DNA of 64,000 nt from Hydrogenophaga flava NBRC 102514 (lineage in GTDB: Bacteria > Pseudomonadota > Gammaproteobacteria > Burkholderiales > Burkholderiaceae_C), in assembly GCF_001571145.1 (NCBI RefSeq), contig NZ_BCTF01000017.1, forward strand, positions 1 to 64,000, read 5' to 3'. The notes under the pieces were generated by a model. The model made no database searches and was not told the DNA's origin. It saw only the letters and a program-made list of their open reading frames with translations. The translations under genes were made by a program, and so were the position numbers. Every line of letters begins with the position of its first letter. The first letter of the stretch is position 1. Shown in pieces: positions 1,061 to 17,232 of this stretch.

Positions 1061-2263
1061 TCAGCTGCCTGACCTTGCGCAGTCCTGAACGGTGATGCAA
1101 CGTGGCCGCCCGTTCAGTGAATACCCCGTACTCCGCCCCCCGCCCTCCAGCTTGCGCAACACGCCCCGCGCCAGCAGATCGTTGATATCGCGCAGCGCGG
1201 TGTCCGCCGAGCACTTGGCAATCGCGGCCCACTTCGCATTCGTGAGCTTGCCGGGCGAGTCGCCCGGCGCACTGTCCAGCACATGGTTCAGCACCAGCGT
1301 CTGACGCGCATTCATGGGCGTGCCCGCCCAGCGCTGCCAGAACTGGGCCTTGTCCAGCACGCCCGCCAGCAGGCCGTCGGCGCCCTGCACGGCGCGCAGC
1401 AGGCAGGCCAGGAACCAGCCGAGCCACGGCGTCACGTCGAGCGTGCCGCGCTGGGTGGTTCCGAGCTGGTCGTAATACTGTTTGCGCTCGCGCTGTATCT
1501 GGGCGCTGAGGCTGTAGAAGCGCTGCGCCGTGCCCTCGGCGCGTGCCAACGCCATGTCGCCCACGGCGCGGCTGATGCGGCCGTTGCCGTCATCAAAGGG
1601 GTGCAGGGTGACGAGCCACAGGTGGGCCAGGCCGGCGTGGACGAGGGGGTCGCCGGCCGGGGCGGCGTTGAACCACTGCAGGAAGGCGGCGGTTTCGGCG
1701 GGCAACGCGGCGGCGGGCGGTGCCTCGTAGTGCACCTTCTCCCGACCCACGGGGCCGGACACCACCTGCATGGGGCCGGCCGCGTCGTTTCGCCACTGGC
1801 CAACCTTGATGCGAACGGGTCCGCTGAAGCCGGTGGGGAACAGGGCCGCGTGCCAGCCGAACAGGCGCTCGGCGGTGAGCGGCTGGGCATGGTGCTGGGT
1901 TGCGTCGAGCACCATGTCCACCACGCCGTCTACGTGGCGGTCGGCGGGGGCCAGCGCGCCGATGTCCACGCCAAGCCGGCGGGCGATAGAGGAACGTACC
2001 GCGTCGAGGTTGAGCGCTTCGCCTTCGATGGCACTGGTGGTGACAACTTCCTGCGTCAGCGCCTGCAGCGTGGCCTGGTCGCGCTGGGCCAGCCCGAGCT
2101 CGGCCATGCGCCCCGCCAGATGGCCCTGCGCGCGGTGCACCTGGGCCAGCGCAGGCGCCAGCGCCGCCGCGTCAAACCGCCACTGCGGCCAGTCGGGGCG
2201 CTGCCAGAGGTAGGTGCGGCGGCGTTGAGGTTTGTCGGGAAACATGCGGCGATTGTGCGTCAT
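1061..2263 (-). CDS. fic: Fic-domain protein (DUF4172 plus Fic plus C-terminal winged helix)
   Basis: Fic proteins transfer AMP or a related nucleotide moiety from a nucleotide to a target hydroxyl. The catalytic motif HPFDDGNGRISR is complete. An N-terminal inhibitory-helix motif TSAIEGE marks an autoinhibited Fic. The N-terminal region (TYLWQRPDWP...) matches the DUF4172 domain common in this family. The last ~80 residues (TNAKWAAIAKCSADTALRDI, then DLLARGVLRK) look like a winged helix, so the protein may bind DNA. The start is uncertain: ATG 2263 gives about 400 residues, ATG 2245 (MFPDKP) is six codons shorter, and neither has a good ribosome site. The double palindrome at 2246-2306 overlaps both, suggesting autoregulation. 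No antitoxin gene is adjacent. Confidence 0.85.
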   Translation of the reverse strand: MTHNRRMFPDKPQRRRTYLWQRPDWPQWRFDAAALAPALAQVHRAQGHLAGRMAELGLAQRDQATLQALTQEVVTTSAIEGEALNLDAVRSSIARRLGVDIGALAPADRHVDGVVDMVLDATQHHAQPLTAERLFGWHAALFPTGFSGPVRIKVGQWRNDAAGPMQVVSGPVGREKVHYEAPPAAALPAETAAFLQWFNAAPAGDPLVHAGLAHLWLVTLHPFDDGNGRISRAVGDMALARAEGTAQRFYSLSAQIQRERKQYYDQLGTTQRGTLDVTPWLGWFLACLLRAVQGADGLLAGVLDKAQFWQRWAGTPMNARQTLVLNHVLDSAPGDSPGKLTNAKWAAIAKCSADTALRDINDLLARGVLRKLEGGGRSTGYSLNGRPRCITVQDCARSGS

Positions 2264-2306
2264 ATTCGCCGCTTTTTGTGCGGCGAATATGCATGCCATT
2301 CGCCGC
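2246..2306. promoter_or_regulatory. Tandem palindromic operator over the fic start
   Basis: Two copies of the same 27-base dyad lie side by side. The first is GCGGCGATT-N9-ATTCGCCGC at 2246-2272 and the second is GCGGCGAAT-N9-ATTCGCCGC at 2280-2306, separated by 7 bases (TTTTTGT). The inner arms extend to a perfect 12-bp inverted repeat (2261-2272 with 2280-2291). Half-sites start at 2246, 2264, 2280 and 2298. The array covers both candidate start codons of fic, so bound protein would block transcription or translation initiation. The obvious candidate ligand is the C-terminal winged helix of the Fic protein itself, but this is inference. Confidence 0.7.
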
Positions 2307-2377
2307 AACGCCCCGTGCGCCCAAGCCCACTGGCTACCATGCGCCATCCACAACAAACCCAGCCACAGGAGGAAGCC

Positions 2378-2932
2378 ATGTCACCCATCCACCCGACCGT
2401 CCCCGCCCCGCGCTCCAGCTTCGTGACCACGCTGGCCTGGCTCATGATCGTGCCGTCGGCGCTGGGTGTGCTCATGTCGACGCTGCAGAGCATTCTGGTG
2501 TTCACCATGCTGCCCATGGACCAGATGACATTGCCGTCCGGGCCGGAGGCCGAGCAGATTCCCGCGTTCGCACTCTTCATGATGGAACACATGCGCGCCG
2601 TGTTCGTGGCGTTCTGGCTGTTGACGGTGCTGGCGCTGGCCTCGGGCATCGGTCTGCTCCAACGCAGGGAATGGGCACGACTGGTGGTCATTGCGCTGCT
2701 GGCGCTGAGCATCGTGATGAACCTGGGCGGTCTGTACGTCCAGCAATCGTTCCTGTCGTCCATCCCGGTCTCGACCGACGCGCCGCCGGAGTTCCGCCAG
2801 CAGTTCGAGAGCATGGCCTCGACGATGTGGACGGTTTCGATTGCGATGGCGCTGGGCTTTTCGGCGGTGTCGGCCTGGATGATCTGGCGGCTGAGTTCGG
2901 AGTCGATCAAGGCGGAGTTTGGTGCCACATGA
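2378..2932 (+). CDS. Four-helix integral membrane protein, function unknown
   Basis: This 184-residue protein starts at ATG 2378, preceded by a strong AGGAGG ribosome site at 2367-2372. It has about four hydrophobic segments: LAWLMIVPSALGVLM, a segment around FVAFWLLTVLALASGIGLL, LVVIALLALSIVMNLGGLY, and a C-terminal one around MWTVSIAMALGFSAVSAWMI. The loop between segments three and four is polar and probably extracytoplasmic. No catalytic motif is visible and I do not recognise a family beyond a small conserved membrane protein. Its stop overlaps the start of the next gene (ATGA), so the two are probably co-transcribed. Confidence 0.8.
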   Translation: MSPIHPTVPAPRSSFVTTLAWLMIVPSALGVLMSTLQSILVFTMLPMDQMTLPSGPEAEQIPAFALFMMEHMRAVFVAFWLLTVLALASGIGLLQRREWARLVVIALLALSIVMNLGGLYVQQSFLSSIPVSTDAPPEFRQQFESMASTMWTVSIAMALGFSAVSAWMIWRLSSESIKAEFGAT

Positions 2933-3381
2933 GACTCTTTGGCCAATCAAGCCGAAAGCAGGTGAGCGATCCGAACCTCGGTTTGTTGACGCAGGACCGG
3001 CATGGCTGGAGCGGTAGCGTCGCTGGGCCGGACGGCATGCAAAGCATCTGGCTCCGAATTGACGGTGCAGGTGACGCGCCCAACGAGGCCGTTGGGTTGG
3101 CGGTACTGGCTTGTCTGGGCAACTACTCCGCACTCACGTTGTCATTGAGTGGCGCCCTCTTCTCGTTGTGGCAACCGTATCTGGATGAACCCCTTTGGGA
3201 GGACGAGTACCCGACTGCGCCCGAAATGCTGTGGGCGCAGTTGCAACTGGAAGGGGTGGAGGTTCAGCGGTCCGGCGAGATCGTTCTCGTGTACGCGTTC
3301 AAGGGCGAGCTGTGGCCAGATGCGGTCTTTTTCGTCCAAGTGGAAGGGACGAAGGTCCGACCGCTCCACGTTGACGACTGA
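2929..3381 (+). CDS. Small acidic hypothetical protein translationally coupled to the membrane protein
   Basis: This 150-residue cytoplasmic protein starts at the ATG that overlaps the preceding TGA by four bases. It is acidic and rich in Trp and Leu, with no signal peptide. The N-terminal DPNLGLLTQDRHGWSGSV, with a central strand-rich part and WEDEYPTAPEMLWAQL, reminds me of immunity-like DUF families (DUF6985/DUF2262 type). These often accompany toxins or appear as orphan genes. I see no catalytic residues and make no firm functional claim. Confidence 0.6.
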   Translation: MRLFGQSSRKQVSDPNLGLLTQDRHGWSGSVAGPDGMQSIWLRIDGAGDAPNEAVGLAVLACLGNYSALTLSLSGALFSLWQPYLDEPLWEDEYPTAPEMLWAQLQLEGVEVQRSGEIVLVYAFKGELWPDAVFFVQVEGTKVRPLHVDD

Positions 3382-3397
3382 CAGCACATCAAGGTTG

Positions 3398-3461
3398 TCA
3401 GGACTTCAACACCTCAATCTCATGCTTCTGCTACACGTAGCCTATCTGGTACAGCGCGATC
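3398..3461 (-). pseudogene. Decayed copy of the nifA 3' end (C-terminal helix-turn-helix remnant)
   Basis: Bases 3398-3461 align without gaps to 4181-4244, the last 64 bases of nifA, at roughly three-quarters identity. Read on the minus strand it encodes IALYQIGYV-stop-QKHEIEVLKS-stop. The nifA end is [20 protein letters not shown]-stop. The residues I, Q, G, Y, QKH, IEV and K and the terminal stop are kept, and one in-frame TAG interrupts the copy. It lies directly upstream of the hydrolase gene, so hydrolase 3469-4173 is flanked by two direct repeats of the nifA tail 783 bases apart. This points to a partial duplication or to insertion of the hydrolase gene next to an ancestral regulator. 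Confidence 0.75.
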
Positions 3462-3468
3462 CATCCCC

Positions 3469-4173
3469 ATGACAACACTGGTTCTTCTACCCGGCATGGA
3501 CGGCACCGGGGCGTTGTTCGCACCGTTGTTGCAAGCGCTTTCGCCGGAAATACAACCGGTGGTGATCACCTACCCGTCCAATGAACGGCTCGGCTACGCC
3601 GAGCTGGTCGAGCTGGTTGAAAAGCAACTCCCGACCGCGACCGACTACGTGCTGCTCGGCGAGTCGTTCTCGGGCCCGATCGCCACCCTGTTGGCCGGTC
3701 GAAACCCACCGGGATTGCGGGCTCTCATCCTCGCCTGCTCTTTCGTCCGTACACCCCGTCCGGTCCTTGCACCGTTCCGTCCGTTGACCCGCCTGCTCCC
3801 CAACCCTGCATTGGCCTTGGGACCTCTGAGCTTCGCGCTCATGGGAAAACACGCGACGCCGCCACTGCGCCGCGCGCTGGCCGAGGCGATTTCGAGCGTG
3901 GACCCGGGGGTCATGCGCCACCGTGCAGCTGCTGCGTTGTCAGCCGACGCCAGCAACAGTCTTGCCACCGTCCGTTGTCCGGTTCTCTACCTGCAGGCCA
4001 ATGAGGACCGGGTTATTCCGATCCGTTGCGCCGCAGAGGTGCAACGTCTTTGCCCACAGACTCATATCGCCTCGCTGCCTGGTCCGCACTTTCTTCTTCA
4101 AACCCAGGCGGCCGCAGCTGCGGAGCGAATAGAAGCCTTCATTGCCGGTGCGCTGAACGCGGACCGGCAATGA
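3469..4173 (+). CDS. Alpha/beta hydrolase (short esterase/lipase-like)
   Basis: This 234-residue protein has the alpha/beta-hydrolase layout. It has an N-terminal strand with LLPGMDGTG (oxyanion region), a nucleophile elbow GESFSG with Ser66, an acid in ANEDRVIP, and a C-terminal histidine in LPGPHFLLQ. It lacks a signal peptide, so it is cytoplasmic. It resembles small homologues annotated as alpha/beta hydrolases near esterases; the substrate is unknown. The gene sits tail-to-tail with nifA (7-base gap) and is flanked by a duplicated nifA 3' end. Nothing ties it biochemically to nitrogen fixation. Confidence 0.85.
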   Translation: MTTLVLLPGMDGTGALFAPLLQALSPEIQPVVITYPSNERLGYAELVELVEKQLPTATDYVLLGESFSGPIATLLAGRNPPGLRALILACSFVRTPRPVLAPFRPLTRLLPNPALALGPLSFALMGKHATPPLRRALAEAISSVDPGVMRHRAAAALSADASNSLATVRCPVLYLQANEDRVIPIRCAAEVQRLCPQTHIASLPGPHFLLQTQAAAAAERIEAFIAGALNADRQ

Positions 4174-4180
4174 AGGCCGT

Positions 4181-5908
4181 TCAGAACTTCCTCACCTCAA
4201 TCCCATGCTTCTGCAGCGCATAGCCCATCTGCCGGGGCGTGATCTTGAGCAGGCGGGCGGCTTTGGCCTGGACCCAGCCACAGCGTTCCATGGCCCAGAC
4301 CAGGCGCTCACGTTCGCCTTCGGGTTTGTCGTCGGTGCGGGCCAGCGACGCGGCTGGCGCTGAGGGCGCGCCGAGCGAGGTGGCGTCGCTCAGGTCGGCC
4401 GGCATCGAGTCGCCCGCATCGGCGCCTCCGCCGCCGAAGTAGGCCGGCTGGCGCGGCGGCGGCGCAGTGGGGATTTCGGTGATCGGGATTTCCGCCAGGC
4501 GGCTGGGGCGCACGGCGTCTTCGCGTTCGATGTGGTGCAGCACCTGCGTCAGGCACCGGTTGTCGCGGCAGGGGAAGGCCAGGTCGGTGATCACGTCGTT
4601 GTGCGCCATGGTGGCGGTGCGCTCGACGCAGTTTTCCAGCTCGCGCACGTTGCCGGGCCAGTAGCAGCTGGTGAGCACGCGCATGGCCTCCGGGCTGAAC
4701 TTGGTGGCCTTGGCGTTTTCGCGGTTGAAGCGTTCCAGGAAGTGCTGCGCCATGGCGGGGATGTCTTCGCGGCGCTCGCGCAGCGGCGGCAGCTGGATGC
4801 TGACGACGTTGATGCGGTAGTAGAGGTCGGCGCGGAATTCGCCGGCCTGCACCATGCGCTCAAGGTTGCGGTTGGTCGCGAGGATCAGGCGCACGTCCAC
4901 CTTCACCGGGGCGCCGCCGCCCACGCGCTCGAAGCTGCGTTCCTGCAGCACGCGCAGCAGCTTGGCCTGGAACGAGGCGGAGATGTCGCCGATTTCGTCG
5001 AGGAAGAGCGTGCCACCGTGGGCCATTTCGAAGCGGCCCTTGCGCTGGCCCTGGGCGCCGGTGAAGGCGCCTTTTTCATGGCCGAAGAGTTCGCTCTCCA
5101 GCAGGCTTTCGGTCAGCGCGGCGCAGTTGACGCCCACGAAGGGTTCCTTGGCGCGCGGCGAGAGGCTGTGGATGGCGCGAGCCATCACCTCCTTGCCGGT
5201 GCCGCTTTCGCCGCGCAGCAGCACGGTGGTGCGCGAGGGCGCGACCTGTTCGATCTGCTCGAACACCTTGAGCATGGGGCCGGAGACGCCGACCACCTGC
5301 TCGATCTTGTTGCGCTGGCCGCTGCCCATGCCCAGGGCCTTGTGCATGCGGCGGGTTTCGTCCTGCAGGGTTTCGTGGGCGGCGGTGACGCTGCGGTGGA
5401 GCAGCAGGGCCTGGCCCATGAGCGTGGCGACCATGCGCAGCAGGCGCAGGTCGTCGGCAAACACGCGGCGCTCCTCGGGGTTGAGGCAGTCGATCACCAG
5501 CACGCCCAGCGTGCGGTGGTCGGCGCGGATCGGGGTGGCGAGCATGGCCACGGGGATGCCCGGGCTCTGGTCGGCACCGCCGGTGCGGTTGAGGAACAGG
5601 GGCTCGGCGCGCACGTCGGGCACGGTGGCGGGCACGCCGCTGGCGAACACGTGGCCGACGATGCCTTCGCCCGATTCGAACTGCAGGCGCTGCTGCTCGG
5701 CCTGCGTGAGACCGATGGCGCAGAGGCCGCTGAGTCTGCCCTCGGCCTCCGCGACCACCACGAAGGCGCGGCGCCAGTCGAAGGCGTGGGTGAGGTAGTT
5801 GAGCGCCTCGCGGAAGGTCTTGTGGACATCCAGCGAGGTGGCCAGCGTCTTGCTGACTTCGTAGACGGCGTCCAGCTCGCGCCGGAGCATGACAGGTGAT
5901 GTGTTCAC
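4181..5908 (-). CDS. nifA: NifA, sigma-54-dependent nif transcription activator, oxygen-sensitive type
   Basis: NifA activates nif promoters by remodelling sigma-54 RNA polymerase. The 575-residue product has an N-terminal GAF domain ([17 protein letters not shown] to about residue 170). A AAA+ domain follows with Walker A GESGTGKE, the sigma-54 contact [15 protein letters not shown] and Walker B LFLDEIGD. The C-terminal helix-turn-helix ends [20 protein letters not shown]. The cysteines between AAA+ and linker follow C-X11-C-X19-C-X4-C exactly, with the last pair at 4553-4570; this signature belongs to NifA proteins directly inactivated by oxygen. I chose the GTG at 5908, which has GGGAG seven bases upstream; ATG 5890 is the alternative. 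It is divergent from nifS and has its own likely sigma-54 element. Confidence 0.95.
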
Positions 5909-5994
5909 GATGGGACTCCCATCTCCGGGCCGTTCGTGGGTTTGCACCAGCAGTGGGACTCCACCGCAAAGTGACGACCTTGGGCTTGCTGCGG

Positions 5995-6010
5995 TGCAAA
6001 AAACGTGCCG
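5995..6010 (-). promoter_or_regulatory. Likely sigma-54 promoter of nifA
   Basis: Read on the minus strand the sequence is CGGCACGTTTTTTGCA, which keeps GG-N10-GC and deviates from TGGCACG-N4-TTGCA only at the first base. It would start transcription about 75 bases upstream of the nifA start. A TTTGCACC (5941-5948) and a GGTGCAAA (5993-6000) form an inverted pair around it; their role is unclear, although TGCACC/GGTGCA resembles NtrC half-sites. Confidence 0.55.
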
Positions 6011-6131
6011 ATATCGCGTGTCGCAGGCTTTGCAACAAACCCGACACGGCAGATGGCGACGAACGGTGTTCACGCGGCACAAAGCCCACACAAAACCCGC
6101 CAAAACCGCCGTTCTGATGGCCACAGACCCA

Positions 6132-6147
6132 TGGCACAGACGTTGCA
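6132..6147 (+). promoter_or_regulatory. Sigma-54 (-24/-12) promoter of the nifS operon
   Basis: TGGCACAGACGTTGCA matches the sigma-54 consensus TGGCAC-N5-TTGCA perfectly. It lies about 37 bases before the nifS start, leaving room for the AGGAG ribosome site at ~6173. I found no perfect TGT-N10-ACA NifA site upstream; the closest is TGC-N10-ACA at 6031-6046. Activation by NifA is therefore likely but may use a degenerate site. Confidence 0.85.
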
Positions 6148-6183
6148 AAAGGGGCTGCAACCCATCAATGCCAGGAGCCTGCC

Positions 6184-7428
6184 ATGCCGGACACCAGCCG
6201 CCCACAAGCACCTGCCCGCAGCGCGTTGCCCATCTATCTGGACTACGCCGCCACCACCCCGGTGGACCGCCGCGTGGCCAGCAAGATGTGGCCGTACCTG
6301 ACGGAACAGTTCGGCAACCCCGCCAGCCGTTCCCACGCCTACGGCTGGGTGGCCGAAGAGGCGGTGGAGCTGGCGCGTGAACAGGTCTGCTCGCTGATCA
6401 ACGCCGACCCGCGCGAGATCGTCTGGACCAGCGGCGCGACCGAGTCGAACAACCTGGCGATCAAAGGGGCGGCCCACTTCCACAAGGCCAAGGGCAAGCA
6501 CCTGGTGACGGTGGCTACCGAGCACAAGGCGGTGCTGGACAGCATGCGCGAGCTGGAGCGCGAAGGCTATGAAGTGACGGTGCTGCCGGTGCTGCCCAGC
6601 GGCCTGCTCGATCTGGACCTGTTCAAGGCATCGCTGCGCCCCGATACGGTGCTCGCCTCGGTCATGTTCGTGAACAATGAGACCGGTGTGATCCAGGACA
6701 TCGCCGCCATCGGCACGATCTGCCGCGAGAAGGGCGTGCTGCTGCACGTGGACGCAGCGCAGGCAGCTGGAAAGGTGGTGATCGATCTGGACGTGTTGCC
6801 GGTTGATCTGCTTTCACTCTCGGCACACAAGATCTACGGTCCCAAGGGCATTGGCGCGCTGTATGTGCGCCGCAAGCCGCGCGTGCGCATCGAGGCGCAG
6901 ATGCACGGCGGCGGCCACGAGCGCGGCATGCGCTCGGGCACGCTGCCCACGCACCAGATCGTGGGCATGGGCGAGGCCTTCTGGCTGGCGCGCGAACAGA
7001 TGGCGAGCGACAACGCCCGCATCACCGCGCTGCGCGAACGGCTGTGGGCCGGCATCTCCCAACTGGAATGCGTCGAACTCAACGGCGACCCGGTGCACCG
7101 CGCCTGCGGGTATCTGAACGCCAGCTTCAACTACGTCGAAGGCGAGTCGCTGCTGATGGGCATCAAGGGTGTGGCGGTGTCGTCGGGCTCGGCCTGCACC
7201 TCGGCCAGTCTGGAGCCGAGCTACGTGTTGCGCGCCATGGGCCGCACGGATGAGCTGGCGCACAGCTCGGTGCGTTTTTCCATCGGCCGCTTCACCACCG
7301 CCGAAGAGATCGACTCGACCATCGCGCAGGTCACCGAGGTGGTGACACGGCTGCGCAGCATGAGCCCGCTGTGGGACATGGTGCAGGCCGGCATCGACCT
7401 GTCCACGATCCAGTGGGCCGAGCATTGA
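6184..7428 (+). CDS. nifS: Cysteine desulfurase NifS/IscS type
   Basis: This PLP enzyme takes sulfur from cysteine to feed Fe-S cluster assembly on the IscU-type scaffold encoded next. The 414-residue product shows the N-terminal [15 protein letters not shown] and THE-type ATEHKAVLD motifs. The PLP lysine lies in [11 protein letters not shown]. The mobile catalytic cysteine is in [20 protein letters not shown], of group I with the long loop. The C-terminus (IQWAEH) resembles IscS more than classical Azotobacter NifS, so this is an IscS-like protein recruited to the nif cluster. A perfect sigma-54 promoter and AGGAG precede the ATG. iscU follows after 21 bases. Confidence 0.93.
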
Positions 7429-7449
7429 TTTAACGAACGGAGCAGCACC

Positions 7450-7884
7450 ATGGCTTACAGCGACAAGGTCGTCGACCACTACGAGAACCCCCGCAACGTC
7501 GGCGCGTTCGATGCCAACGACGACAGCGTGGGCACCGGCATGGTGGGTGCGCCCGCCTGCGGCGACGTGATGAAGCTGCAGATCCGCGTGAACGCGCAGG
7601 GCGTGATCGAGGACGCGAAGTTCAAGACCTACGGCTGCGGCTCGGCGATTGCGTCCAGCTCGCTGGTGACCGAATGGGTGCGCGGCCGCACGCTGGACGA
7701 GGCGCTGGCGATCAAGAACTCGACCATTGCCGAGGAGCTGGCGCTGCCGCCCGTGAAGATCCACTGCTCCATCCTGGCCGAGGACGCCATCAAGGCGGCC
7801 GTGTCCGATTACCGCTCGCGCCACGGAAGCCCCGCCACCGACACGGTGGTGGAAAAGGACGCCTGCGAACCCCGCGGCCATTGA
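7450..7884 (+). CDS. iscU: Fe-S cluster scaffold, IscU/NifU N-terminal type
   Basis: This scaffold assembles [2Fe-2S] and [4Fe-4S] clusters with sulfur from the desulfurase. The 144-residue protein has the three ligand cysteines at 37 (GAPACGD), 63 (TYGCGSA) and 106 (KIHCSIL), plus the conserved Asp39. LPPVK (99-103) is the HscA recognition loop, matching the hscA gene three positions downstream. It lacks the NifU ferredoxin and Nfu domains, so it is an IscU-like single-domain scaffold with an extra ~15-residue polar tail. It sits second in the sigma-54-driven operon. Confidence 0.93.
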
Positions 7885-7912
7885 GGCCGAAACACTCCTG
7901 AGGAGAAATGCC

Positions 7913-8287
7913 ATGTCCGCTGTGTCCGAAGCCGTCGTCGCCGAAGCGGCGCCCATCCCCGCCCTGCTCGACTTCACGCCGCAGGCCGCCGCCAAGGTGG
8001 CCGAGCTGATCGAGGAAGAAGGCAACCCCGAGCTGAAGCTGCGCCTGTACGTCACGGGCGGCGGCTGCTCGGGCTTCTCCTACGGCTTCGTGTTCGACGA
8101 CCAGGTGGCCGAAGACGACACCGTGGTCTCGACCGAAGGTGTTTCGCTGGTGGTGGACGCGATGAGCCAGCAGTACCTGCTGGGCGCGCGGGTGGACTTC
8201 GAGGACGGACTGGAAGGTTCGCGCTTCGTGATCCACAACCCCAACGCGCAGACCACCTGCGGTCGCGGCAGTTCGTTCTCGGTCTGA
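7913..8287 (+). CDS. iscA: A-type Fe-S carrier (ErpA/IscA family) with an altered C-terminal motif
   Basis: A-type carriers pass Fe-S clusters from the scaffold to targets. The 124-residue protein has an ErpA-like N-terminal extension, the first ligand cysteine in [11 protein letters not shown] (Cys52), and a C-terminal motif [11 protein letters not shown]. The usual motif is CGCG. Here the third ligand cysteine is Arg118, encoded by CGC at 8264-8266, one base from TGC. The rest of the fold is intact, so loss of a ligand in a living gene is more likely than decay. A normal paralogue follows 11 bases later. Confidence 0.9.
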
Positions 8288-8298
8288 CGGAGGTCGCC

Positions 8299-8622
8299 AT
8301 GAGCGTGTCACTCACCCCCGCCGCCGCGCGGCATGTGGAGAAGTCGCTGCTCAAGCGCGGCTCGGGCCTGGGCCTGCGGCTGGCGGTCAAGACCAGCGGC
8401 TGTTCGGGCTTTGCCTATGCGCTGGAGTTCGTCGACGAGATGAACGCCGACGACCAGTGCTTCGAGAACCACGGCGTGAAGGTCATCGTGGACCCGCGCA
8501 GCCTGGGCATGCTCGACGGCACCGAGCTGGACTTTGTGCGCGAAGGCCTGAACGAGGGCTTCAAGTTCAACAACCCGAACGCGAAAAACAACTGCGGCTG
8601 CGGCGAAAGCTTCGCGGTCTGA
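8299..8622 (+). CDS. iscA: A-type Fe-S carrier IscA
   Basis: This 107-residue A-type carrier has all three cluster ligands: Cys35 in [13 protein letters not shown], and Cys99 and Cys101 in [11 protein letters not shown]. The sequence ([18 protein letters not shown]) is of the IscA type rather than ErpA. It lies between the variant carrier and hscA with 7 bases to the next start, in the classical isc order. It probably delivers or repairs clusters during nitrogenase assembly. Confidence 0.93.
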
Positions 8623-8629
8623 ACACACC

Positions 8630-10500
<1,871 letters not shown>

Positions 10501-10501
<1 letters not shown>

Positions 10502-10836
10502 TGCCCCTGGTTCGCATCCTGCCCCACCCCGACCTCTGCCCCGAGGGCAAGGACTTCGACGTCCGGCGCGGCGCCTCGCTGTGCGAGAGCATGCTCAAGG
10601 CCGGCGTGGCGATCGAGCACGCGTGTGACATGGTGGCCGCTTGTGCCACCTGCCATGTGCATGTGCGCGAAGGCGGCGCTTCGCTGGCCGAGCCGGACGA
10701 CGAAGAGAACGACCAGCTGGACAACGCCTGGGGACTGGATGCGCAGTCGCGGCTGGCCTGCTGTGTGAAGCTGCGCGAGGCCGATCTCGTCGTCGAACTG
10801 CCCAAGCACACCCGCAACCACGCTCGCGAAAAGTGA
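10501..10836 (+). CDS. fdx: [2Fe-2S] ferredoxin, Isc type
   Basis: This adrenodoxin-like ferredoxin supplies electrons for cluster assembly. The 111-residue sequence has the ligand pattern C-X5-C-X2-C in [19 protein letters not shown], with the last cysteine in RLACCVKL. The acidic [11 protein letters not shown] stretch fits a partner-binding surface. It is the last gene of the nifS operon; the 155 bases that follow hold the regulatory region of nifV. Confidence 0.93.
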
Positions 10837-10851
10837 CACCGGCGGGTCGGC

Positions 10852-10867
10852 TGTCCGAAACGGCACA
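10852..10867 (+). promoter_or_regulatory. NifA upstream activator site before nifV
   Basis: TGT-CCGAAACGGC-ACA is a perfect TGT-N10-ACA NifA binding site. It lies about 80 bases upstream of the -24 element at 10949, the usual spacing for NifA action by DNA looping. It starts only 15 bases after the fdx stop. Confidence 0.85.
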
Positions 10868-10948
10868 TTCCCGACACCGCCTCCGAAGCACGGCCATCCC
10901 GGCCACACAAAGCGGCTTCAAACCCACACAAAACGCACGCAAAACAGG

Positions 10949-10963
10949 TGGCACGCCTTATGC
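10949..10963 (+). promoter_or_regulatory. Sigma-54 promoter of the nifV-cysE-nifW-fixABCX operon
   Basis: TGGCACGCCTTATGC matches TGGCACG-N4-TTGC with one change (ATGC for TTGC). The start codon of nifV is about 30 bases downstream. Together with the upstream activator site at 10852-10867 this makes a complete NifA-dependent promoter. Confidence 0.85.
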
Positions 10964-10991
10964 GATGAGGTCCCTGAAAGGACACCGCGAC

Positions 10992-12140
10992 ATGGCACAC
11001 CACCTGGTCATCAACGACACCACCCTGCGCGACGGCGAGCAGACGGCGGGCGTGGCTTTCACGGTGGCAGAGAAGTGCGCCATTGCCCGGGCCCTGTCCG
11101 ACGCGGGTGTGCCGGAGATGGAGATCGGCATCCCCGCGATGGGCGAGGAAGAGATCGCCTGCATCAACGCGATTGCCGCGCTGCGCCTGCCGGCCCGCCT
11201 GATGGTCTGGGGCCGCATGACCGAATCGGATCTCGCAGCGGCGCTGCGCTGCGACGCACACATCATTCACCTGTCGATGCCGGTGTCCGACATCCACCTG
11301 CGCCACAAGCTGCGCCAGTCGCGCGATGAGGTGATGGCGCAGGTCACGCGCGTGCTGACCCGCGCCGCGGCCAGCGGCCTGCAGGTGTCGTTCGGCATGG
11401 AAGACGCCTCGCGCGCCGACCCGGATTTCATGGCGCAGATCGCACGCCGCGCAGCGAGCTGCGGCGCCTCGCGCGTGCGCTTTGCCGACACGCTGGGCGT
11501 GCTCGATCCGTTCTCCACCTTCGAGGCCATCGCCCGCCTGCGCCAGGACCTGCCCGGCATGCGGATCGAGATCCACGCGCACAACGACCTGGGCCTGGCG
11601 ACCGCCAACACCCTGGCCGCGCTGCGCGCCGGCGCCAGCCACGCCAACACCACCGTCAACGGCCTGGGCGAGCGCGCGGGCAACGCCGCGCTGGAAGAGA
11701 TCGTGATGGGCGTGCGCCACCTGCACGGCGGCGACACGGGCGTGGCCACCCAGTCGCTGGTGGACATTTCGCGCCTCGTCGCCAAGGCCTCGGGCCGGCC
11801 CGTCGCCTTCAACAAGAGCATCGTCGGCGAGGCGGTGTTCACCCACGAATCCGGCATCCACATCGACGGCCTGCTCAAGAACCCGAGCACCTACGAGAGC
11901 TTCGACCCGGCCGAGCTGGGCCGCGAACGCCGCACCGTGCTGGGCAAACACTCGGGTTCGCAGGCGGTGCGCATGGCCTACGGAGCCATCGGCGTGGCCC
12001 TGAACGACGACGGCCTGACCGGGCGCCTGCTAGGCCGCATCCGCGCGCACGCGATGGACGCCAAGCGCGAGCCGACCCCGCAGGAGCTGCAGCGCTTCCT
12101 GTGCGAATCGCAGCCCGCGGCCATCCGCTTCCCGTCATGA
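10992..12140 (+). CDS. nifV: Homocitrate synthase NifV
   Basis: NifV condenses acetyl-CoA with 2-oxoglutarate to homocitrate, the organic ligand of FeMo-cofactor. The 382-residue protein shows the isopropylmalate/homocitrate synthase signatures [17 protein letters not shown] at the start and [21 protein letters not shown] in the barrel. [18 protein letters not shown] and the [15 protein letters not shown] region follow. Length is typical. I chose ATG 10992, just after the sigma-54 element; longer upstream extensions would run through the promoter. The stop overlaps the cysE start (ATGA). Confidence 0.95.
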
Positions 12141-12934
12141 AACGCGACGAGACACCGATGCTGGCTGTCACCGCCCCGCCCCCCGCCCAGCGCAGCACCG
12201 GCTGGTGGTCGCTGGTGCGCGGCGACGTGGCCTGCGTGCTGGCGCGCGACCCGGCGGCGCGCAACCGGCTGGAGGTGTGGACCATCTACCCCGGCGTGCA
12301 GGCGGTGGCGCTGTACCGGCTGGCGCATGCGCTGTGGTCGCGCGGATGGCGCTTCGGGCCGCGCTTCATTTCCTACGTCGCGCGCTGGCTGACCAACGTG
12401 GACATCCACCCCGGTGCGCGCATCGGTGAACGCTTTTTCATCGACCACGGCGCGGGCGTGGTGATCGGCGAGACCGCCGAGATCGGTGACGACGTGACGC
12501 TCTACCACGGCGTCACGCTGGGCGGCACCACCTGGAACCCGGGCAAGCGCCACCCGACGCTGGGCCACGGCGTGGTGGTGGGTGCGGGCGCCAAGATTCT
12601 CGGCCCCATCACCGTGGGCGACGGCGCGCTCGTGGCGGCCAACTCGGTGGTGATCGAGCCGGTGCCCTCGGGCGCGACGGTGGTCGGCATTCCGGGCCGC
12701 GTGGTGGCCCCGCGCCGCCGCACCACGCATGGTTTCGACCTCGACCACCACCTGATTCCCGACCCGGTCGGCAAGGCCATGGCCTGCGTGCTCGACCGGC
12801 TGGCCCAGCTCGAACGCGCCCAGGCCGCCGGCGCCGGCCTGGCCAGCGCCGACGCCGCCTGCGGCCAATGCGACGACCCCTGCGCCCTGCCCTCGTTCGA
12901 CCTCAAGACCGGCGTGACCGTTCACCAGGAGTGA
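12137..12934 (+). CDS. cysE: Serine O-acetyltransferase, nif-linked (NifP/CysE type)
   Basis: The enzyme makes O-acetylserine, the carbon precursor of cysteine, which NifS consumes. The 265-residue protein has the left-handed beta-helix hexapeptide repeats ([40 protein letters not shown]) with the catalytic His/Asp region and the GG-rich loop. The start overlaps the nifV stop by four bases. A Cys-containing C-terminal tail ([12 protein letters not shown]) is unusual for CysE. A cysE copy in nif clusters is known as nifP in Azotobacter, where it raises cysteine supply during nitrogen fixation; the same role is inferred here. Confidence 0.92.
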
Positions 12935-12939
12935 CCACC

Positions 12940-13281
12940 ATGGAAGACCTACTGACCCGCCTCAAGGCCCTGTCCTCGGCCGAGGATTTCCTGCAGTTCT
13001 TCGGCATCCCGTTCGACCAGGCCGTGGTCAACGTGAGCCGGCTGCACATCCTCAAGCGCTTTTTCCAGTACCTGCGCCAGCAGTCGGCCGACCTGCCGCA
13101 GGACAACGAAGTTGCCCTGTTCACCGCCTACCGCCAGCTGCTCATCAAGGCCTACGGCGACTTCGTGAAGTCCACGCCCGCACAGGAGAAGGTCTTCAAG
13201 GTGTTCCAGGACGTGGGGGGCCGGCAGCACGTCTCCATCGACAACCTCAAGGCGTCCCTGCCGCAACGCGCCGTGGCCTGA
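12940..13281 (+). CDS. nifW: Nitrogenase stabilising/protective protein NifW
   Basis: NifW binds the MoFe protein and is thought to protect nitrogenase from oxygen or help its maturation. The 113-residue protein matches the family in size and in the sequences LSSAEDFLQFFGIPFDQAVVN, HILKRFFQYL and AYRQLLIKAYGDFVKSTPAQEKVFKVFQ. It starts five bases after cysE and is followed by fixA after 12 bases, so it belongs to the same NifA-controlled transcript. Confidence 0.95.
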   Translation: MEDLLTRLKALSSAEDFLQFFGIPFDQAVVNVSRLHILKRFFQYLRQQSADLPQDNEVALFTAYRQLLIKAYGDFVKSTPAQEKVFKVFQDVGGRQHVSIDNLKASLPQRAVA

Positions 13282-13293
13282 AAGGAATCCACC

Positions 13294-14145
13294 ATGCACA
13301 TCGTCGTCTGCATCAAGCAGGTCCCGGACTCGGCGCAGATCCGCGTCCACCCGGTGACCAACACCATCATGCGCCAGGGCGTGCCGGCCATCGTCAACCC
13401 GTACGACCTGTTCGCACTGGAAGAAGCCCTGAGGCTGAAAGACAAGTTCGGCGGCCGCGTCACCATGCTTTGCATGGGCCCGCCGCAGGCCGAGGACGCT
13501 CTGCGCAAGTGCATCAGCTTCGGCGCCACCGACGCCATCCTGGTGACCGACCGCGCCTTCGCCGGTGCCGACACCCTGGCCACCAGCTACGCACTGACCG
13601 CCGCCATCCGCAAGATCCACGCAGAGCAGGCGGTGGACCTGGTCTTCACCGGCAAGCAGACCATCGACGGTGACACCGCCCAGGTTGGCCCCGGCATCGC
13701 CAAGCGCCTGGGCTGGAACTTGCTGACCTACGTGAGCAAGATCAACGAGGTGGACCTGGACGGCCAGACCCTGACGGTGGAGCGCCGCGCCGAAGGCGGC
13801 GTGCAGCGCCTGCAGACCACGCTGCCCAGCCTGATCACCATGCTCGAAGGCACCAACGAAATGCGCTTCGCGACCATGGACGACATGCTGCGCGCCGGCC
13901 GCTGCCAGGTGCGCAAGTGGAGCAAGGACGACGCCGGCATCGAGGACATAACCAAGATCGGCCTCAAGGGCAGTCCCACCATCGTCAGCAAGGTGTTTGC
14001 CCCCAAGGCCCGCAGCGTGCGCGCCGAGATGCAGGAGGTGGGCGACGGCACCAGTGTCAACGACGTCTGCCTGAACCTGCTGCAGAAGATTTTCACCACC
14101 CACCCGACGCTGGAGCAGGAGACGGTCGACCGTCTCAGCGCCTGA
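13294..14145 (+). CDS. fixA: FixA, electron-transfer flavoprotein beta-type subunit
   Basis: FixA and FixB form an electron-bifurcating flavoprotein which, with FixC and FixX, oxidises NADH and reduces ferredoxin or flavodoxin for nitrogenase. The 283-residue protein starts [20 protein letters not shown] and has the ETF-beta features [17 protein letters not shown] and [17 protein letters not shown]. Length is normal. It lies 12 bases after nifW. Confidence 0.95.
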
Positions 14146-14173
14146 GCCCCGCACGCACCAGAAGGAGAAGACC

Positions 14174-15298
14174 ATGGCCGAACCCGACAAGCCCCAGATG
14201 GCCGCCGCCGCTGCCGCAGGCGCCGCCAAGACCGCCGGCCGCAGTGGCCGCAGCACCGAACTGCCCGAACACCTGAAGGTCTACAAGGGCGTCTGGGTGT
14301 TCATCGAACACGATCGCGGCCAGGTGCACAGCGTGAGCTGGGAGCTGATGGGCGAAGCCCGCAAGCTGGCCGACAAACTGGGCGTGGAGGTCAGCGGCGT
14401 GCTGCTGGGCGGCCCGTCCGACAAGCTGGAGGACTACGCCAAGGAGGCCTACGTCTACGGCGCTGACCACTGCTACCTCATGCGCGACCCGGTGCTGCAG
14501 GGCTACCGCAACGAGCCCTTCACCAAGGGGCTGACCGACCTGGTGAACAAGCACCAACCGGAGATCCTGCTGCTGGGCGCCACCACCATGGGCCGCGACC
14601 TGGCGGGCTCGGTGGCCACCACCCTGGGCACTGGCCTGACGGCCGACTGCACCGAGCTGAACATCGACGGCCGCGCGCTGGCCGCCACCCGCCCCACCTT
14701 CGGGGGCAGCCTGCTGTGCACCATCATGACCCTGGCCTACCGGCCGCAGATGGCCACCATGCGCCCGCGCACCGCCGCCATGCCGGCGCGCGACGAAAGC
14801 CGCAGCGGCGACATCATCACCATGGACCTGGGCATGGTCGAAACCGACATCGTCACCAAGCTGCTGGCCTTCATCCCCGACGCCACCAGCAACAACATCA
14901 ACCTGGCCTACGCCGACATCATCGTCACCGCCGGCAAGGGCCTGAAGAACGCCGACAACTGCAAGCTGGTGTGGGACCTGGCCCGCGTGCTGGGCGCCGA
15001 GGTGGGCGCCACCCGCGCGGTCACCCAGGCCGGCTGGCTGGAGGCCGAACGGCAGGTGGGCCAGACCGGCAAGACGGTGCGGCCCAAGCTCTACATCGCC
15101 GCCGGTGTGAGCGGTGCGATCCAGCACCGGGTGGGCATGGAGGCGTCCGATGTGATCGTGGCCATCAACACCGACCCCAACGCGCCCATCTTCGACTTCG
15201 CCCACCACGGCATCGTCGGCAACGCGATGCAGGTGCTGCCGGTGCTGACCGCGGCCTTCCGTTCCCACCTCGACAAGCGCATCCGCAAGGTTGCGTAA
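14174..15298 (+). CDS. fixB: FixB, electron-transfer flavoprotein alpha-type subunit
   Basis: FixB is the alpha subunit of the Fix electron-bifurcating complex. The 374-residue protein has an Ala-rich N-terminal leader (~35 residues), the ETF-alpha domain ([19 protein letters not shown]), and the C-terminal FAD-binding signature [17 protein letters not shown], with [20 protein letters not shown] after it. It follows fixA by 28 bases, with an AAGGAGAA ribosome site before the ATG. Confidence 0.95.
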
Positions 15299-15321
15299 CC
15301 CCGACCCCAAGGAGATCTGTG

Positions 15322-16629
15322 ATGTCCAACGAAAAGTTTGATGCGATCGTGGTCGGGGCGGGCCCCTCGGGCAACGCCGCGGCCTACACCATGGCCAAGG
15401 CCGGCCTGAAGGTCCTGCAGATCGAGCGCGGTGAATACCCGGGCAGCAAGAACGTGCAGGGCGCAATCCTCTACAGCAACGCGCTGGAACAGATCATCCC
15501 GGACTTCCGCGAGGACGCACCGCTGGAGCGCCACATCATCGAGCAGCGCATGTGGATGATGGACGACGAGAGCTTCGTCGGCACCCACTACCGCAGCGAC
15601 GACTACAACAAGCCACCCTACAACCGCTACACCATCATCCGGGCGCAGTTCGACAAGTGGTTCAGCTCCAAGGTGCGCGAGGCCGGTGCGCTGCTGATCT
15701 GCGAGACCACGGTGGAAGAGCTGCTGCTCGACGGCGAGCGGGTCATCGGCGTGCGCTGCGACCGCCTGGGTGGCGAGGTGTACGCCGACGTGGTGGTGCT
15801 GGCCGACGGCGTGAACAGCACTCTGGCGCGCAAGGCCGGCTTCCACGGCGAGCTGGACGCGGGCAACGTGGCCCTGGCGGTCAAGGAGATCCTGTTCCTG
15901 CCCGAGGACGTGATCCAGCAGCGCTTCAACATCAAGGAAGACGAGGGCGTAGTCATCGAGCTGATGGGCAAGGTGACCGAGGGCATGGTGGGCACCGGCT
16001 TCCTCTACACCAACAAGGAGTCGCTCACCATCGGCGTGGGCTGCATGCTCAGCGACTTCAAGGCCAACCCGCTGCGCACCAAGCCCTACGAGCTGCTGGA
16101 AAAGCTCAAGAAGCACCCCAGCATCGCGCCCATGATCGAGGGCGGCGAGATGAAGGAGTACTGCGCCCACCTGATCCCCGAAGGCGGCTTCAACGCAGTG
16201 CCGCGCCTGTACGGCCCGGGCTGGCTGATCGTGGGCGACTCGGGCGGCTTCGTCAACGCGGTGCACCGCGAGGGCTCCAACCTGGCCATGACCAGCGGTC
16301 GCCTGGCCGGTGAAACGGTCATTGCGATGAAGGCCGCGGGCCAGGAGCCCAGCGCCGCCCACCTGAAGCTCTACAAGGACAAGATGGACGAGTCCTTCGT
16401 CATGAAGGACCTGAAGAAGTACCGCAAGCTGCCCGAAGTGCTGCACAGCAGCCCGCAGTTCTTCACCGCCTACCCCGAGCTGGTCAACCGCGCGGCCAAG
16501 ACCTTCTTCACCGTGGACGGTGTGGACAAGCATTCCAAGGAAAAGGAAATCCTGGGCAGTTTCCGCAGCAAGCGCAGCCTGACCGGCCTGGTCGGCGACG
16601 CATTCAAGATCTGGAGGGCTTCGCGATGA
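15322..16629 (+). CDS. fixC: FixC, ETF:quinone-oxidoreductase-like flavoprotein
   Basis: FixC carries FAD and passes the high-potential electrons of the bifurcation to quinone. The 435-residue protein opens with the dinucleotide motif [20 protein letters not shown] and has [17 protein letters not shown], and [19 protein letters not shown] near the FAD ribityl site. ATG 15322 follows the ribosome site AAGGAG at 15309-15314. Its stop overlaps fixX by four bases. Confidence 0.95.
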
Positions 16630-16922
16630 GCACCGCTGTCAACGTGGAAGAGAAACTCTTCCAGAACCGCTACAAGGTCGACCACGGTCGGCCCCACATC
16701 CAGATCAAGAACGCCGAGGTCTGCAGCAACGACTGCCAGTCGCAGGCCTGCACCTTCATCTGCCCGGCCGCCTGCTACAAGGCCGAAGGCAACCGCACGG
16801 TGACCCTCATCACCGACGGTTGCCTGGAGTGCGGCAGCTGCCGCGTGATCTGCACCGAACACGCCAACGTCGCCTGGGAATACCCGCGCGGCGGCCACGG
16901 CATCCTGTTCAAGTTCGGTTGA
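16626..16922 (+). CDS. fixX: FixX, ferredoxin-like subunit
   Basis: FixX is the 4Fe-4S partner of FixC. The 98-residue protein has the characteristic cysteines in [19 protein letters not shown] and the C-terminal motif [20 protein letters not shown], ending [13 protein letters not shown] as in the family. The start overlaps the fixC stop (ATGA). It closes the nifV-fixX operon; I see no clear terminator right after it. Confidence 0.95.
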
Positions 16923-17155: not shown

Positions 17156-17232
17156 TGGTAGGCGCGATTGGACTCGAACCAACGACCCCCACCATGTCAA
17201 GGTGGTGCTCTAACCAGCTGAGCTACGCGCCT
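17156..17232 (-). tRNA. tRNA-Val (anticodon GAC)
   Basis: The minus strand folds as a full cloverleaf of 77 bases. It has a 7-bp acceptor AGGCGCG/CGCGCCT, D-arm GCTC...GAGC, anticodon stem CCACC/GGTGG with loop TTGACAT giving GAC, a T-loop with TTCGAGT, discriminator A and an encoded CCA. Confidence 0.97.

Follow-up and report, generated by a model that had tools for sequence, protein, structure and literature searches.

A decayed second nifA 3' end beside a hydrolase gene in Hydrogenophaga flava and a probable wider pattern of exchange at the end of nifA

Genes and features at the locus

The window, the whole stretch of DNA that was analysed, comprises 64,000 nt of Hydrogenophaga flava NBRC 102514 (contig NZ_BCTF01000017.1, positions 1-64,000, forward strand). 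Near its left end a hydrolase gene stands between the end of nifA and a second, decayed copy of that end, hereafter called the stub. The features are collected in Table 1.

Table 1. Features around the hydrolase gene, in window coordinates.
Feature	Position	Strand	Remarks
drt3b, 3' part (anti-phage reverse transcriptase), cut by contig end	1..741	+	5' part and drt3a at end of contig C8, near nifB
fic gene (DUF4172 + Fic)	1061..2263	-	PADLOC SoFic 1.2e-38; start set by comparison with G064
orf2, 184 aa, membrane-type protein	2378..2932	+	H. pseudoflava orthologue, 84% identical, lies downstream of nifA
orf3, 150 aa, no family; adjoined by putative old nifA end	2929..3381	+	67% identical orthologue in G073, nifA tail attached
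Spacer, orf3 stop to putative old nifA stop, 16 nt	3382..3397		Aligns ungapped with G073 locus, 10/16 identical
Stub: putative displaced, decayed 3' end of older nifA allele	3398..3461	-	64 nt; terminal stop retained; two stop/missense changes in frame; orf3 junction common to G073
Junction, putative old nifA end to hydrolase start codon, 7 nt	3462..3468		No obvious ribosome-binding site by eye
Alpha/beta hydrolase, 234 aa, 705 bases; putative newcomer cargo	3469..4173	+	Pfam Abhydrolase_6, 3.7e-8
19-bp inverted repeat, 95%; overlaps hydrolase end, between convergent hydrolase and nifA	4135..4177		Repeat search; absent from terminator-scan output
Present nifA	4181..5908	-	TIGR01817, 658 bits (cut-off 529); last 64 nt, 4181-4244, are second repeat copy; start codon 5908 assumed
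Conserved nif module (nifA ... nifV ... fixB)	4181..16922		Alignable in genus genomes compared; flanks vary between species

The hydrolase ORF is intact and scored under the cut-off of every NCBIfam equivalog that it touched. The initial annotation had this gene fit exactly between the repeats, and this was borne out, with 7 bases left towards each of them. No other ORF lies between the repeats, and the repeat search found no long inverted repeat at the two ends of the hydrolase unit. Neither the ORF lists nor the family scans showed a transposase or an integrase in the interval enclosed by the repeats or adjacent to them. The promoter scan returned no promoter in 2900-4400, and the two terminator matches obtained were both within chance range. 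The leader of the hydrolase gene is now formed by the upstream nifA end, with the joint 7 nt before the start codon.

The closest named NifA relatives of the window are those of H. pseudoflava, at about 92%, and by these the window falls in Hydrogenophaga. Immediately beyond the conserved nif module, on the side away from nifA, lie tRNA-Val (17156-17232) and then relA. On the other side, the right end of contig C8 carries nifB, then drt3a, then the first 424 codons of drt3b (drt3 part at L288 8125-10610); Drt3b model positions 1-404 were found on C8 and 420-647 at the left end of C17, the window. The anti-phage reverse-transcriptase pair Drt3a/Drt3b is probably situated between nifB and nifA, with drt3b split by the contig break. 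Across the C8/C17 break we infer the order nifB, drt3a, drt3b, fic, orf2, orf3, old nifA end, hydrolase, nifA.

The upstream repeat is a decayed nifA end

A repeat search of 2000-6500 returned 3398-3461 and 4181-4244 as the largest direct-repeat family (64 nt, 77%, ungapped), and an exact count gave 49 of 64 positions identical. This agrees with the first description of the repeat, in which the last 64 bases of nifA recurred upstream, ungapped and about three-quarters identical. The runner-up place for the nifA end in the 64-kb window, on either strand, matched at 35/64. As controls, 300 64-mers drawn from the window had a second-place maximum of 40/64, and 100 Markov-chain windows a maximum of 37/64. 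Chance similarity of the stub to nifA was ruled out by these values, 49/64 against at most 40/64 in the controls.

Translation of the stub gave IALYQIGYV-stop-QKHEIEVLKS-stop, which confirmed the IGYV-stop-QKHEIEVLKS and terminal stop read earlier; an in-frame stop and missense changes have accumulated and the terminal stop is kept. The 15 mismatches are spread over codon positions 1, 2 and 3 as 4, 7 and 4, and 10 of them are transitions, the pattern expected of unconstrained decay, without selection on the protein.

R1, a sequence model built from 27 nifA tails, spans just the last 84 nt and is blind to fragments of the L072 type described below. It found the window stub at E = 1.3e-8 in a search of the whole genome. 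Across 67 genus genomes R1 found 14 intact tails in 14 genomes, that of the window included; the further matches were those in G073 (E 3.9e-16) and G025 (4.3e-13) and the window stub (1.3e-8), all remaining ones being 9e-4 or weaker. Among the nifA sequences compared, the best pairwise identity of the stub, 49/64 or 50/64, is to nifA of the window clade.

The stub is a decayed 3' end of nifA and not a target-site duplication. Its origin is best read as an earlier allele of nifA itself, rather than as a separate vnfA-like paralogue. The alternative offered at the outset, that the hydrolase took the place of a second NifA-like gene of which the stub is the scar, comes close, but the relic, recognised by R1 at the E-value above, is nifA itself. 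It is probably the upstream copy that represents the older end of nifA, and the hydrolase and the present nifA end probably arrived later.

A nifA tail beside orf3 without the hydrolase

Genome G073 contains orf2 and orf3 (67% amino acid identity each) followed by a nifA tail, at a dioxygenase-mnmA locus far from its own nifA and with no hydrolase; the spacer between orf3 and the tail corresponds to that in the window (Table 1). Since the junction of orf3 with the nifA tail is present in G073 without the hydrolase, the junction predates the hydrolase and was not created by it. The most economical view is that orf3 once abutted a working nifA and that the upstream copy in the window is that original end. 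In G025 the dioxygenase-mnmA locus holds orf2, another gene and a nifA tail, likewise far from the genome's own nifA. The locus is empty in G000 and in H. pseudoflava.

The two ectopic stubs are 75-83 nt long and lie in the region L155 7943-8058 and at L156 7926-8005 (G073 and G025), beside cargo of the orf2/orf3 type. Both genomes now carry nifA of type 2. The G073 stub is of type 1 (8:1) and the G025 stub leans towards type 1 (5:2); the window stub, which is short, has three diagnostic sites of type 1, two of type 2 and two of neither. At 56 columns that are invariant in the 14 intact tails the window stub shows 9 changes, none of which (0/9) is common to the stubs of G073 or G025, while these two share one change among the 56 (column 38). 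The absence of any derived change common to the window stub and the other two indicates that the tail was intact at the time when the stubs diverged.

The main rival to an older resident end is that orf2-orf3 and an attached nifA tail moved as one piece, out of another locus or strain, and were set beside hydrolase-nifA, the tail never having been part of a resident nifA here. The units in G073 and G025, far from nifA, speak for such a move, and so does the finding that their tails are closer to window-type nifA than to their own: the G073 stub matches G000 at 69/78 and its own nifA at 63/78, and the G025 stub 63/80 and 57/80, respectively. On the other side, orf2 looks native in the window, being found downstream of nifA in H. 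pseudoflava (84% at the amino acid level) and as a remnant in G063; the window stub has no derived change in common with the two ectopic stubs; and the mnmA locus of G000 is empty. We consider this explanation unlikely, while giving it more weight than the alternatives discussed below.

Some further observations were made at the dioxygenase-mnmA locus. The fic gene or its promoter repeat also occurs there, and fic alone in G029 (L198). An inverted repeat upstream of fic (window 2245-2307, 28-nt arms) recurs beside the nifA tail of G073, without fic. A former site of the nif cluster at this locus in G073 and G025 was suggested by G064, in which nifA and mnmA are on one contig. It was set aside on the layout of G064, in which a 4.8-kb block lies between nif and mnmA and the order is different; within the 40 kb of G064 that was compared, no dioxygenase flank turned up. 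The mnmA tree was weakly supported, with 2 of 13 inner branches starred. A candidate tail at mnmA in G083 was not counted, as it reached E 1.1e-3 in 124 kb (53 nt at 77%, blastn) and was missed at E 0.01 in the genome-wide search.

Distribution of the hydrolase

No close copy of the hydrolase was detected at E 1e-20 in the 13 other Hydrogenophaga genomes with nifA. At the same threshold, homologues in the genus (40-41% identity) were restricted to G073, G076 and G083, on contigs other than the nifA contig. Loci L042-L121, the best 80 of 344 related loci, yielded no relative at E 1e-4. In 399 genomes of the larger family group the closest homologues were 45-49% identical, and plasmids gave one record, at 28% identity. 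A donor with the hydrolase adjoining nifA was not found in L042-L121, the genus genomes, the 399 family genomes or the plasmids. The comparison of nifA 3' flanks proposed in the initial annotation was thereby carried out: neither a close hydrolase nor a second tail beside nifA was found in the 13 other nifA-bearing genomes of the genus.

Stubs in other nifA flanks

The downstream flank of every nifA was searched, on the same strand, for matches to that nifA, over a set of 82 flanks made up of 80 loci (the best 80 of 344), the window and G063. The 80 downstream flanks measured at least 7.9 kb in 59 cases, 1.5-7.9 kb in 15 and less in 6. In L067 the order is nifA, a carboxyltransferase operon, an 80-nt second nifA end and nifB, and the stub is identical at 70/80 positions to its own nifA and at 73/80 to that of the Rhodoferax MAG L049. 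In the Rhodoferax loci L072 and L080, nifA is followed by AbiLi-AbiLii and then by a nifA fragment covering -121 to -70, 7 nt past the abiL stop; behind the fragment stands a copy of the sequence that follows intact nifA. This repetition, seen from L072 12059-12107 onward, leaves AbiL flanked by long direct repeats. L072 and L080 were counted as one event because their spacers are 92% alike over 2.6 kb.

No nifA match was obtained in the opposite-strand control (0/82), and the permuted-partner control gave 3/82, all into the same stub-bearing flanks. A 31-nt match in the L085 flank, to the GAF part of the gene (E 2e-5), was treated as chance and not counted. Three independent events, each with a different cargo, accordingly follow a single arrangement, which runs from the live nifA through cargo, old nifA end and older flank to nifB. 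In the window, L067 and L072/L080 alike the remnant lies beyond the cargo on the nifB side, in the orientation of nifA, with its outer edge 64, 80 and 121 nt from the nifA end, respectively.

The layout is rare. Apart from that of the window, no extra tail beside nifA was found in the 399 family genomes, and none at E 1e-5 beside the 22 nifA tails in 89 genomes of the genus of G210, the last 84 nt being modelled in both searches. In G379 the nifA tail is split over contigs C7 and C29, with model positions 41-48 overlapping, perhaps owing to an insertion sequence in nifA.

In line with the second option of the initial annotation, the stub could in principle be what is left of a tandem second nifA that lost its body at a later stage, with the hydrolase taking the vacant place. 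The relic is indeed nifA sequence in the right orientation, but none of the 67 genus genomes has two intact nifA tails (R1), and three steps would be required, namely duplication, deletion and insertion of the hydrolase on its own. The course would also leave L067, L072 and L080 unexplained, where differing cargo sits exactly between nifA and stub. We regard it as improbable.

Some genomic islands integrate into the 3' end of a gene, tRNA or other, and restore that end. A live gene with a restored end, then cargo, then the displaced old end in the same orientation is what we see at nifA as well; the difference is that here no integrase is seen and the crossover point does not seem fixed. Site-specific or Campbell-type integration into the nifA 3' end, by which a circular cassette brought in the hydrolase together with a new end for nifA and the new and old tails are the attachment sites, would account for restored gene ends and displaced tails of similar length in several cases (64, 80, 75-83 and 121 nt). 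However, no integrase was seen between the repeats in the window or in L067, where two cargo proteins were scanned. The boundaries differ (121, 80 and 64 nt), and identity at the outer edge is confined to 4 bases (window) and 7 bases (L067), with no common core. We regard such an integration as very improbable. Least credible, and rejected here, is the transposon-like insertion first considered, in which the hydrolase duplicated the target-gene end: the gene is neatly flanked by direct repeats, but these 64-nt repeats are 23% diverged, no transposase or integrase was seen, and the stub junction exists in G073 without the hydrolase, a contradiction unless that junction arose independently.

Proposed displacement of an older nifA allele

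We propose, with a probability of about 0.62, that an incoming block of hydrolase and nifA displaced the resident nifA by homology-facilitated illegitimate recombination and left its 3' stub behind. An older nifA allele would formerly have ended beside orf3, the upstream repeat being its last 64 nt. DNA from another strain, with the hydrolase followed by its own nifA, would then have recombined with the resident nif region. Its nif side would have been held by ordinary homology, with the conserved nif module as the proposed anchor, and its other side joined by illegitimate or very short homology within the last codons of the resident nifA. The body of the resident gene would have been replaced or cut off, while its 3' stub would have remained beyond the new cargo, towards nifB, and decayed there as seen above. 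The cell would have kept one working nifA throughout. If so, the nifA-nifB spacer may repeatedly take up cargo in this way, with 64-121 nt of the displaced allele left each time, and this would account for the same layout with differing cargo in other lineages.

An exchange of blocks anchored in nif DNA can be seen in the sequence of G063. There, the region equivalent to window 4181-8290 is 92.3% identical to the window, and the region 8300-10837 is 94.5% identical to G034 and 82.0% to the window. The break, at the equivalent of window 8290, is sharp, the nifA-isc side being window-like and the distal side G034-like.

Several observations weigh against displacement. No donor with the hydrolase beside nifA was found, and comparison of the window's own nifA module with relatives gave no sharp identity break that would mark an import. 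The layout is rare in the 89 and 399 genomes searched, AbiL lies behind nifA in G008 (L044) without a stub, and the window stub is too short for typing. That the G073 and G025 stubs are situated at a distance from nifA means that tails can move together with cargo as well.

A bolder extension of the displacement reading, which we rate as quite unlikely, would make the nifA 3' end a recurrent docking site, where DNA pieces bringing either a nifA end of their own or the complete gene are exchanged within the last ~120 nt, perhaps with the aid of a recombinase supplied in trans. The nif cluster would then work like a conveyor, by which anti-phage genes and other cargo are loaded into the nifA-nifB interval and successive stubs are left as a dated series.

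Relation to known systems

C-terminal displacement with orphan tips has reportedly been described for Rhs, by Jackson et al. in 2009. Strings of displaced 3' ends downstream of a live gene are common to both cases; Rhs tips are variable toxin domains, whereas the nifA stubs are decaying, near-identical copies of one conserved end. Homology-facilitated illegitimate recombination has been proposed by Kirchberger et al. 2017 (PMC5361080) for the displacement of T6SS effectors in Vibrio cholerae; 3' ends and immunity genes stay behind, and the same idea is cited there for Rhs. By analogy the nifA case may work like T6SS displacement. On the displacement reading, both would share a module anchored by conserved DNA on one side, an illegitimate joint on the other and a 3' end or neighbour left behind. 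The difference is that effector-immunity modules at a secretion locus are exchanged there, while here the anchor would be nifA, a metabolic regulator the function of which must be kept, and the cargo is unrelated. In PMC3240628, the same type of recombination occurs in laboratory transformation or conjugation, with one homologous and one illegitimate joint and a gain of foreign DNA. Those are laboratory events, whereas our case is read from natural genomes, with the joint presumed to fall within the final 121 nt of the gene that serves as anchor.

Judging by these sources, displaced 3' stubs have so far been described for toxin loci, where diversity is selected. Three independent stub events at the core regulator of nitrogen fixation suggest that a conserved metabolic cluster can anchor the gain of unrelated genes. 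No literature on nifA stubs or on a nifA-nifB hotspot was found by title, in a search with subscription journals mostly outside it. Being short and datable, the stubs mark earlier exchange of nif DNA, and such events could be counted from them. The repeat finding is real and modest in size, and it probably belongs to a wider pattern in which sequence at the end of nifA is exchanged.

Cargo of the nifA-nifB spacer

In 66 of the best 80 of 344 loci, nifB lies downstream of nifA on the same strand. The gap between the two genes is below 700 nt in 35 of these 66 loci and above 1500 nt in 21, and from this wide variation we concluded that the nifA-nifB spacer is an insertion site. Its contents differ between genomes: RelE and an HTH protein in G063, AbiLi/AbiLii and RloB with no nifA stub in G008, fic in G064, an RcnB-like gene and orf2 in H. 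pseudoflava, and a transposase in G083. Anti-phage genes (Drt3a/b, Fic and AbiL) are included in the cargo of these spacers, and ordinary genes such as NifQ occur there too. PADLOC, run on 87 ORFs from 27 spacers longer than 1 kb, returned AbiLi three times, AbiLii twice, SoFic once and type IIG enzymes three times, counts from which we claim no enrichment for defence. AbiL is found in nifA-nifB spacers of both Hydrogenophaga (L044) and Rhodoferax (L072 and L080).
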